A stretch of DNA of 64,000 nucleotides from Bryum argenteum. Lineage: Eukaryota; Streptophyta; Bryopsida; Bryales; Bryaceae. This document shows, piece after piece, positions 58,617-62,206 of the stretch (its first letter is position 1; each line of letters opens with the position of its first letter). Where the stretch lies: positions 2,496,648 to 2,560,647 of the forward strand of contig CM073329.1 in NCBI GenBank assembly GCA_037043015.1, given 5' to 3'. Made by a program: the position numbers and the translations under genes. The notes beneath the pieces were generated by a model that had not been told where the DNA came from, did not search any database, and saw only the letters and a program-made list of their open reading frames with translations.

Positions 58617-59225
58617 ATCAATACTTGACCCTTCAACCTCTTTCACCTCTAGAATTTAAAAAGTGGGAATATTAAGGTGGCGCGTTTTTCATGACAATAC
58701 ACAAATCTAATTGGGTTACAATTCTACCCGGTATTTGCGGAGTCAAGAATATGACCTTGAGTTTCAAAGCCTTAGAAAGAAAAATAGAAATTTGAATTAA
58801 GTTTTGTAAGTTGGGTATTACTCTTGACTCACAATATTTCCGATAAAAACGTGGAGTTTTGAAAATTATGTTATATTTTAGTTGTGAGAACTCTTCATTT
58901 ACTGCAAAAGGTTGTCACATTTACTAATAACATAATCTTAAAAACTGCAAATTTTCAATATCGTGAGTCAAGAGTCATACCCAATTTGCAGAACAACGTT
59001 CCAATTCGTTGATTATTTGTTTCAAATCATCTAACTCAAACTCAAATAAGAAAAAGAATAAAAAAGAATCTTCTTCTTGTGGTTTTGAGCCAGTACACTT
59101 CTCGACGGAAATAACACGGAAATAAGTGTAAAGCGTAATGTTGTAACTTTGTACTTTCACAAGTAGGAATTAACCAAGAGAGCCTATTCAATTGAGTAAG
59201 AGAGCTTGTTCATTTATACTTCTGA

Positions 59226-59365
59226 AAACATAATTTCTAAAAATTATATTTGTTATTTCTCATTAGATTTTTCTTGCTGTAGTAAACTATATTGTAAACA
59301 TAATTTCTAAAAATTATATTTGTTATTTCTCATTAGATTTTTCTTGCTGTAGTAAACTATATTGT
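59226..59365. repeat. Perfect 70-bp tandem duplication
   Basis: Two identical 70-base copies start at 59226 and 59296 (AAACATAATTTCTAAAAATT...). No mismatch is seen, so the event is recent or it is a variable site. Confidence 0.92.
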
Positions 59366-59922
59366 AGCCTGTTGAAAGTGCAATCTACACTAGCACTCTT
59401 TTGTCGCTTGGGACAAGTGTCTACATTGTTTTAGGCATTACGTGAGCTCCGAAAGGCTGATTGTCTTACACAGATGAACAAACCAGCCGATGATAGAAAT
59501 TGAACTCATGTTGGCCGGCGATTGTTCTTTTTCTTTACTTCCAATCGCCAGAACTGCAACAGCTGACGACCCTAAGCAAGTACGTAGAGAACAAAAAGAA
59601 AGGCATTCACAGAATAAGACGGCATAATTTTCAGAATTTGCATTAAACAACAGTCGTGGAAGTGGAAATGATTCACCAGACCCTTGTGACTAGATTACAG
59701 TCTCGGAATAAAATTAGGGAGGTGAACCACTATAACCGACCCGGGTCACTTTCTTATATACACTTCTGCTCGGGATAGAAAGGACCAGCTCAATTAAGTT
59801 AGATGGGTAGGATCAGAGTATAGAATCTCAAAAGAAAACGGCCTCGACTATCAGAAGGCGGTTTCTGATAAGCTCAGCCGGATTCAGAGATAGTCTGCAG
59901 CGAAGGTGGTTCTGGTTAGTGC
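59366..59922. other. 3' flank of the XRCC4-DUF3444 gene
   Basis: Probably 3' UTR and terminator region of the minus-strand gene. GCTCAGCCGGATTCAGAGAT is repeated at 59872 and 59921, the second copy overlapping the end of the coding region. Confidence 0.45.
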
Positions 59923-62206
59923 TCAGCCGGATTCAGAGATAGTTTGCATGATTTCCACAGCGACAACAGGGGTGTTGATGACTTTGCCCTGACAAGTGGA
60001 GGACAAAAATTCCTCGGGCGTGGAAGCAGAGTCGAGGCCGAAGGAGCCGCGCGGCACCACGCGCGTCTCGCTGCCGTCGAAGCGGTGCGTGGCGATCTGG
60101 TGCGAGAACATGGCCTGCAGGTCCTTGCCCGGGATCCAGTGGGGTGGCATGAGGCCTCCGGAGCGGAAGACGGTCTTGAACCCCGGCACCTTGGTGATCG
60201 GCCCCACTTTCACGCCCTTCTCCTTGGCGTAATCGCTCAGGAGCTCCACCAGCTCGTACTCGAACTTGGGCACCTCGTCCTCCGCGAACTGCTTCCCCAG
60301 CGGCTTGTCCCAGTCCTTGTACAACGCCCACACCTCCCCCTTCCGAGGATAGATCCGGTACATCTTCTTCTTCGCGTCGGCCTCCACCTCCACGCGGTGC
60401 GAGAATGCTGCCAGTGTCTGCGCGCTGATCGTATCCCTCTTGAACTCCCCGCACGCCACCGATAACCCCGCCGACTTCACCAGCCCTGAGAACGCCAGCG
60501 CCGGTCGGTGCGGCTCCAGCCACTCCACCTCCACCTGCAAAGCCAACGACATCAGCATGGCGGTTCGTTAATGGGAGATGATCCGTTTCAGGGGATGTTT
60601 GATACCTGGAAGGGCTCCAGCACGAGATTGACGATGCGGCCGTAGAAACGCGGCATGCCGTCCTGGTTGTCGTACAGGGCCCAGTATTGGCCCAGGCCCA
60701 TGACGTACTTGGAGCGTTCGTTGTCGAAGTCGTAGAAGTCGGCGTTGATGACGCTGAACTCTTTCGGGAGCAGCGTCGTTGCCGGAGGGGCGTTGGTGTC
60801 GGTGTCAGTAGTGGGACGTTCCACGAGTGGAAGGGCGACGCTGCTTTGCGTGGAGGTGTCTTCGGACGGTTGCCGGAGGTGGAGTTTGGGGTGTTCGTTG
60901 ATGTTGTTGTTGTTGTTCGCGTTTGCGGTGTTGGTGGTGCCTCGCTTGCGTCCCGCAGTTTTAGGGCCCTTGGGAGCTCCCAACGCGGACTTGCTGAGTG
61001 CTCGCGGGTTCACGAGCTGGCGTGTGTAAGGCTCCAGCAACTTGATGGCTCGCTCGGACTGCTCCTCGATTCGGTGCTCTGATAGCTGGTCCCTTGTCAG
61101 CGCGTCTCTCTGTGGCCCTGCACGGAGGGAGGGTTGGAACATCATGCGAGGTCGTTGACAGAAAAGCTAGGGAATGTGAGGGGGGAGCTACCTCCACAAG
61201 CGAGCGTGCGTGCCAGAGGCAAGCGAGCGTCGGTGTCAGGCGCTTGCACCACGGTGCCCTTGGGCTTCCTTCCGCGTTTCTTGCCGACTCTCGGCACCGT
61301 GTTGGGTGCGGAAGTTTTGCAAATTTCGACGTTGTGGAGCCCGGTGGACAATTTCGAAGTGGACTTGTTCCACTGGCCATCACAGCCACTGAGCTCTTCC
61401 TTGGCTGGGGAGCCGTTTTCAGTGATGGGGGCCTGAGCGTCCGTCTCCTTTGCGGGTATCGGTGGCGGTGGCAACGGGGCCCAATTAGGGCGCTGCTGGG
61501 AGCCTCGCTTCGCGGGCGCAGTGTCTTCACCACCGCCTGCATCAAACTTGCGCTTCAACGCCGACGGGTCCGGCGGCACGGGGACGATGGCGAGCTCCGG
61601 CTTGAGCTCGGAGCCTTTGATCATCCGCACCTGCGATTCCAGCTGCGACTTCTCGTACTCCAACTGCGCTTTCTGGCATTGCAGCTCCTCCACGGACTGC
61701 TCAATGGTGGCTTTGGTGCGCTCGTAGGTGCGGGACTTCTTCTCCATCTTCTCCTCGAGCTCCTTGTTGGCGTGCATCAGAAACTCCACCACCTCGAACG
61801 CCAGGTCCAGCACGGGCGCCACCTTCAAGGGCAGGTTGATAGTGAGCTCCATGTTGAGATCGCGCCCGTCGCGCGGCGTGCACAGCAGCTGGGCACCAGT
61901 GTTTGGGCTGGGGCCCAGGCAATGCAAGGAGTAGAGCGAGCTCTTGTGGCCGTGGCCCAGATGCAGGTGCGCTTTGTCCACGAACTGCGTCGCCGTGATT
62001 TTCATGTCGCTTGCACGTTGGGTCACAAAGGCTTCAGTGGCCTCAATCTTCCACGCATTTACCCCATCTGTGACCGCCAGGGAGAAATGCTGCGGGTACC
62101 ATATGCCTTTCACCACCAGCGAGCTCGTGTGGTGGGCTATGCCTGTCTTGGCCACGTTGTGAAGCTGCACGCATGTCTGGTTACCCTTTCTCGCCATTGC
62201 AATCAC
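59923..62206 (-). CDS. XRCC4-DUF3444 fusion protein
   Basis: Three exons: 61192-62206, 60606-61117, 59923-60534. Introns are GT-AG and in phase, giving 712 aa. Residues ~10-125 match the XRCC4 head of plants (VKGIWYPQHFSLAVTDGVNA, ATEAFVTQRASDM, SLYSLHCL). Residues ~135-198 are the long coiled coil (VVEFLMHANKELEEKMEKKS) through which XRCC4 dimerises and holds DNA ligase IV in end joining. A low-complexity linker follows, with an AT-hook-like KKRGRKPKG and a polyAsn run. Residues ~459-712 are a DUF3444 domain (YDFDNERSKYVMGLGQYWAL, YDNQDGMPRFYGRI, VEVEWLEPHR, YRIYPRKGEVWALYKDW, FSHQI), normally found behind a J domain in plant DnaJ proteins. The first intron (74 nt) has a pyrimidine-rich acceptor. 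If retained, the frame runs 16 more codons and stops, giving an XRCC4-only 354-aa form. Nuclear, likely DNA repair; the role of DUF3444 is unknown. Confidence 0.85.

Follow-up and report, generated by a model that had tools for sequence, protein, structure and literature searches.

A single predicted gene in the moss Bryum argenteum joins an XRCC4-type head and a predicted coiled coil to a C-terminal DUF3444 domain, and the same head-plus-DUF3444 layout occurs in two further genes of this genome, here called the C2 and C6 fusions after their contigs. The gene lies in the window, that is, the whole stretch of 64,000 nucleotides that was analysed (C9:2496648-2560647), and the genome searches covered a 259-Mb, 25-contig assembly of this one plant. 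Among PDB chains, the plastid psaA of the assembly matches 8htu and 6l35 of Physcomitrium patens best, as would be expected of a moss. Judging from the domain and profile comparisons given below, the fusion is real and recurrent, and it is carried by a paralogue family rather than by the core factor. Plant XRCC4 is usually regarded as a small scaffold protein, as a rule encoded by one gene. One ordinary XRCC4 together with at least three diverged XRCC4-DUF3444 proteins in a moss genome would mean that scaffolds of the end-joining type have diversified there. DUF3444 is now known behind three N-terminal modules, namely DnaJ, DNMT3 and the XRCC4 head, and its joining to the head may point to a scaffold of the end-joining kind that is connected to a chromatin-type domain. 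Mosses are efficiently gene-targetable and the balance of repair pathways in them is a current question, which makes the family directly testable.

The window gene is located on the minus strand between 62197 and 59923, and its three exons encode a protein of 709 aa that is in frame throughout (Table 1). The first ATG is at 62197; the outer end given in the sequence-only reading, 62206, precedes this ATG by 9 nt and shares its open frame. That reading had described one three-exon gene with an XRCC4 head, a coil and DUF3444, and two frame-keeping GT-AG introns. Both descriptions stand, as the two domains exceed their Pfam cut-offs, two further genes are built alike, and the spliced model keeps an unbroken frame. 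When intron 2 is removed, the matches to profile positions 3-57 and 54-211 merge into a continuous DUF3444, and because splicing restores a single domain, this intron is well supported. At intron 1, 32 frame-keeping GT-AG pairs are possible and the best-looking pair was chosen, which leaves the exact boundaries of this intron provisional. Exon 1 has 335 open codons, more than the longest open run (270) obtained in 2000 mononucleotide shuffles. The GC3 of the window gene (59923-62197) is 0.80, against 0.43-0.60 in XRCC4, the DnaJ-DUF3444 gene and the other fusion genes.

Table 1. Features of the XRCC4-DUF3444 gene in the window (positions are those of the window).
Feature	Residues	Coordinates	Strand	Basis or remarks
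Exon 1		61192..62197	-	XRCC4-like head, coil and first linker part; 335 codons + 1 nt
Intron 1		61118..61191	-	74 nt, phase 1, GT-AG (GAG/GTAGCT ... TGCAG/G); ends provisional
Exon 2		60606..61117	-	Remaining linker and DUF3444 start
Intron 2		60535..60605	-	71 nt, phase 0, inside DUF3444, GT-AG (CAG/GTATCA ... TTGCAG/G)
Exon 3		59923..60534	-	Ends at TGA 59925-59923
XRCC4-type globular head	~1-127	61817..62197	-	Pfam match at residues 28-90 = 62116-61928; globular fold putative
Predicted long helix (coil)	128-195	61613..61816	-	Single-sequence AlphaFold model
AT-hook-like motif RGRKP	308-312	61262..61276	-	Sequence, in linker
DUF3444, first part	454-506	60606..60764	-	Pfam
DUF3444, second part	507-661	60070..60534	-	Pfam

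The XRCC4 N-terminal domain was matched in the window protein with 39.8 bits (Pfam cut-off 26.2; E 4.6e-10), and DUF3444 with 199.8 bits (cut-off 26.1; E 5e-59) over positions 3-210 of the 211 in its profile. In the same Pfam search, no match at E up to 1 was obtained for XRCC4_CC, for DnaJ (the J domain) or for the C5 methyltransferase family PF00145. The coil is the sole confident part of a single-sequence AlphaFold model of the N-terminal piece (block means of pLDDT 85-97 at residues 141-190); residues 1-135 stay below 50 in this model. The corresponding exon-3 model has a mean pLDDT of 34 and no interpretable fold. Searched by sequence against solved structures, DUF3444 gave best E-values of 0.32 and 1.2, both for unrelated proteins; of 81 pattern matches in viral and 54 in prokaryote collections, none was confirmed by tblastn. 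An internal duplication of DUF3444 is not claimed, since hhalign of its two halves gave a probability of 35%. AT_hook is not among the Pfam matches of the window protein, and when the 240-aa linker was shuffled 5000 times, RGR[PK] came up in 73 cases (1.5%). An AT-hook-like motif is also present in the C6 fusion and is absent from the C2 fusion and from XRCC4.

Across the genome, DUF3444 was matched seven times at E up to 0.001 and eight times at E up to 10, and all matches are located within four genes. Three of the four have an XRCC4 head, while the remaining one encodes DnaJ, a zinc ribbon and DUF3444 in an open frame of 842 aa. The C2 fusion (C2:17052767-17056540, 7 exons, 893 aa) scores 38.6 bits for XRCC4 and 187.6 bits for DUF3444; the C6 fusion (C6:1137674-1132038, 8 exons, 1221 aa) scores 32.8 and 163.1 bits, respectively, and all four values are above the cut-offs. 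The middle of the C6 model is provisional, and an extra coil exon was dropped from it because it broke the frame. By eye, without a coil predictor, the long coil is absent from both of these fusions. Their assignment to DNMT3 was considered and rejected, as both have XRCC4 heads upstream that exceed the cut-off after splicing. No DNMT3-DUF3444 gene was detected in the genome by the profile search, which placed DUF3444 only in the four genes listed.

A six-frame search for XRCC4 gave three places. Besides the window gene these are C2:18126106 and C6:13337432, of which the latter, with 19.4 bits, is below the cut-off. This search missed the heads of the C2 and C6 fusions because introns split them, and the number of XRCC4 heads is therefore a lower bound. 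Three of the five head loci examined carry DUF3444. An extra, odd XRCC4-like gene runs from C2:18126613 downward, with an XRCC4 head of 27.6 bits in one exon and an AT-rich, low-complexity open frame of 1190 aa. No DUF3444 was found in this gene by profile, and a scan of its strand to 18112000 for motifs of this domain gave only three isolated FSH and one YPKKG, which we do not regard as DUF3444.

The fifth head locus is an ordinary XRCC4 gene, located at C6:13337169-13338586, with 5 exons and an unbroken frame of 225 aa. The spliced product scores 44.9 bits for XRCC4 and 18.1 bits for the XRCC4 coil, below the cut-off of 27, and its alignment with human XRCC4 runs from residue 29 to 199-211. 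A segment of the coil, read by eye as KF..(I/V)(L/V)N.KK.K.R.L, is conserved in the human and the moss protein, and we take it to be the ligase-IV-binding residues. The pathway in which such a protein would act seems to be in place in its ordinary form. Ku was matched at two loci of the genome, and the family of ligase IV's XRCC4-binding helix was matched at two loci with 24.2 bits each (cut-off 22.1) and an E of only 0.014. The helix loci, C1:42342588-42342671 and C8:655515-655598, are near-identical stretches, which suggests two copies of ligase IV. The XLF family gave no match in the genome; its profile matched nowhere, so this null result falls short of absence.

By profile comparison, the window head comes out as a clear relative of XRCC4. 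When the three fusion heads were combined in a profile without the canonical gene, PDB yielded 27 sequences with E up to 1. The top 17 are XRCC4 itself or engineered XRCC4 chimeras, with E from 1.3e-6 to 4e-4 and unmodified human XRCC4 (3ii6) at 8.3e-6; the others are unrelated, with E of 0.09 or more. The window head alone reached an XRCC4 chimera at E 0.008 as its best PDB match and native XRCC4 (1ik9) at E 0.17. Aligned with the 225-aa XRCC4 by hhalign, the three-head profile gave E 1.6e-13 over XRCC4 residues 1-142. The window protein alone gave 26% identity over 180 columns (E 6e-18 in a single comparison) and the alignment ended at residue 173. Its likeness to XRCC4 (PF06632) extends over the head and the first part of the coil, and the window head shows 20-26% identity with XRCC4 as well as with the heads of the C2 and C6 fusions.

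Beyond this region the two kinds of protein differ. The three-head profile ends at human residue 162-167 in 3ii6, 1fu1, 1ik9 and 7lsy, chains that continue further, and the ligase-IV coil segment was not recognisable in the window protein or in the profile by PDB search, hhalign or single alignment. The window protein additionally has about 500 aa of linker and DUF3444. Because a separate 225-aa XRCC4 exists and the fusion has no recognisable ligase-IV segment, the window protein is in all likelihood not the core XRCC4 of this genome and is regarded as a paralogue. The sequence-only reading had put DUF3444 directly on a core end-joining factor; on these alignments, it is an XRCC4-like paralogue family that carries the domain, rather than that factor.

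The gene structures provide information on the origin of the copies. Three head introns are common to canonical XRCC4 and the C2 and C6 fusions, in the same columns (72, 124 and 172) and phases (1, 0 and 0), whereas the window gene has none of them. For this reason the window copy looks like a retrocopy, which probably arose from a spliced mRNA and later gained or recruited its two short introns. At 74 and 71 nt, both introns are below the size range of the 17 in the other three models (87-541 nt). In the trees of five heads, the best topology pairs the window head with canonical XRCC4 (AU 0.93 in full, 0.87 for the head only) and several others are not rejected, among them topologies that unite the three fusions (highest AU 0.24 in full, 0.19 for the head only). 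The best DUF3444 tree pairs the window domain with DnaJ and the C2 domain with that of C6 (AU 0.94 versus 0.055 and 0.091). These trees are too weak to separate one fusion event from two.

Our main reading, to which we give a probability of roughly 0.5, is that the window protein belongs to a small family of XRCC4-like-DUF3444 paralogues and acts as a dimeric adaptor of XRCC4 type that uses DUF3444 as an arm to recruit partners from chromatin or the methylation machinery. The head and coil would form a parallel dimer, either with itself or through contacts with XRCC4 heads of the kind made between XRCC4 and XLF. The linker would be flexible and touch DNA, while the two DUF3444 domains of the dimer, placed together at the far end, would bind the chromatin or methylation partners. 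Such a protein would tether assemblies of XRCC4 type to chromatin or regulate that link, and would not be the partner of ligase IV. We infer the chromatin link because DUF3444 sits on plant DNMT3 and because an AT-hook-like motif is found in the window and C6 fusions. The absence, by eye, of a long coil from the C2 and C6 proteins argues against assuming a dimer function for all three fusions.

Several known systems resemble parts of this protein. XLF has a globular head, a coiled-coil stalk and a disordered tail, a layout that the window protein would resemble; XRCC4 and XLF build head-to-head filaments, and the BRCT pair of LigIV encircles the XRCC4 coil (PMC8376411, available in part). Unlike a member of the XLF family, however, the window protein scores only 14.1 bits with the XLF profile of Pfam (cut-off 24.6), and no XLF chain is found among the PDB matches at E up to 1. 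Its DUF3444 is 34% identical to that of the DnaJ-DUF3444 gene of the same genome, but the J domain and the zinc ribbon are missing. The sequence-only reading had called DUF3444 typical of DnaJ proteins and possibly chromatin-related. The first description applies to the DnaJ gene and is too narrow, since in the available part of one report DUF3444 is also C-terminal on plant DNMT3, including a DNMT3 of Physcomitrella; the same location lends some support to the second (PMC6453930). As in that protein, DUF3444 of the window gene is placed at the C-terminus behind a DNA-linked N-terminal module in a non-flowering plant, but there is no methyltransferase domain.

Different explanations have to be weighed against our main reading. 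It is extremely improbable, in our view, that a pseudogene, a mis-assembly or a pair of adjacent genes has been misread as one gene, even though intron 1 allows several frame-keeping boundaries and the GC3 departs from that of the relatives. The frame of exon 1 stops at 61144 and that of exon 2 is open already from 61166, and because the frames overlap, two ordinary plant genes would have no intergenic space between them. Additionally, GC3 is high through both halves of the gene (0.73-0.91 by block), the frames are open and the splice sites are GT-AG. Since the unlinked, multi-exon C2 and C6 fusions have the same architecture, the fusion is not an artefact of the gene model, and with these two loci at hand a chance juxtaposition of head and DUF3444 is very unlikely. 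At the level of the predicted gene, the joining of an XRCC4-type head and coil to DUF3444 is confirmed. The view of the sequence-only reading, in which the fusion is the plant's working XRCC4 with a domain added, is favoured by the strong match of the head to XRCC4 and by the pairing of the two in the best head tree, where several other trees are not rejected. We nevertheless consider it quite unlikely, as the separate XRCC4 carries the ligase-IV segment, which is not recognisable in the fusion.

A serious but tentative alternative is a neofunctionalised scaffold outside end joining, in which the XRCC4-type head and coil only dimerise and the partners are of the DnaJ or DNMT3 type, in chromatin or transcription. 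The lack of a recognisable ligase-IV segment is consistent with this explanation, as are the low identity of the window head to XRCC4 and the other fusion heads, and the fact that the companions of DUF3444 so far are DnaJ and DNMT3. The window head, however, is still a clear XRCC4 relative over 180 aa, and a long coil is predicted behind it, which speaks against this alternative. A more elaborate scenario, which we regard as unlikely, is that XRCC4-type heads joined DUF3444 twice independently, once as a retrogene chimera in the window and once from a duplicated multi-exon XRCC4 in the C2/C6 pair. The products would then constitute a chromatin-tethered second XRCC4 system, perhaps in the role of XLF as the head-to-head partner, steering break repair in methylated chromatin.

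In the literature searched, which included few subscription papers and no domain-database architecture lists, no paper was found with XRCC4 and DUF3444 together, and such a fusion was not found in the available parts of work on XRCC4 from mosses, bryophytes or plants at large. Physcomitrella has a second XRCC4-like gene, Pp3c14_21160, which was not differentially expressed in one study (PMC8803787, partial text); more than one gene of this kind is thus present in another moss, too. Physcomitrella XRCC4 was induced 149-fold in a bleomycin study (PMC4990234, partial text). The DnaJ proteins of the SUVH-SDJ system were considered as a lead to the function of DUF3444, but the accessible literature on them gave nothing on this domain, and the available text of the paper on SDJ1/SDJ3, Arabidopsis DnaJ proteins acting with methyl-DNA readers, has no mention of a DUF.

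Some additional features of the locus and the genome were observed. Downstream of the window gene there is a 70-bp tandem duplication (59223-59362, 99% identical), and a 28-bp direct repeat (59872-59899 and 59921-59948, 49 bp from start to start) overlaps the stop codon of the gene. The DNMT3 with DUF3444 reported from Physcomitrella (PMC6453930, partial text) has no counterpart among the DUF3444 genes found in the genome of the window. Nine of the 17 matches to the cytosine-methylase family PF00145 in this genome coincide on one section of the profile (~47-131). They lie in open frames 187-1278 aa long on C1 and C3 (for example, C3:24556159, C1:43310210 and C1:28763441), as if a repeated element carrying a methylase-like domain were behind them.
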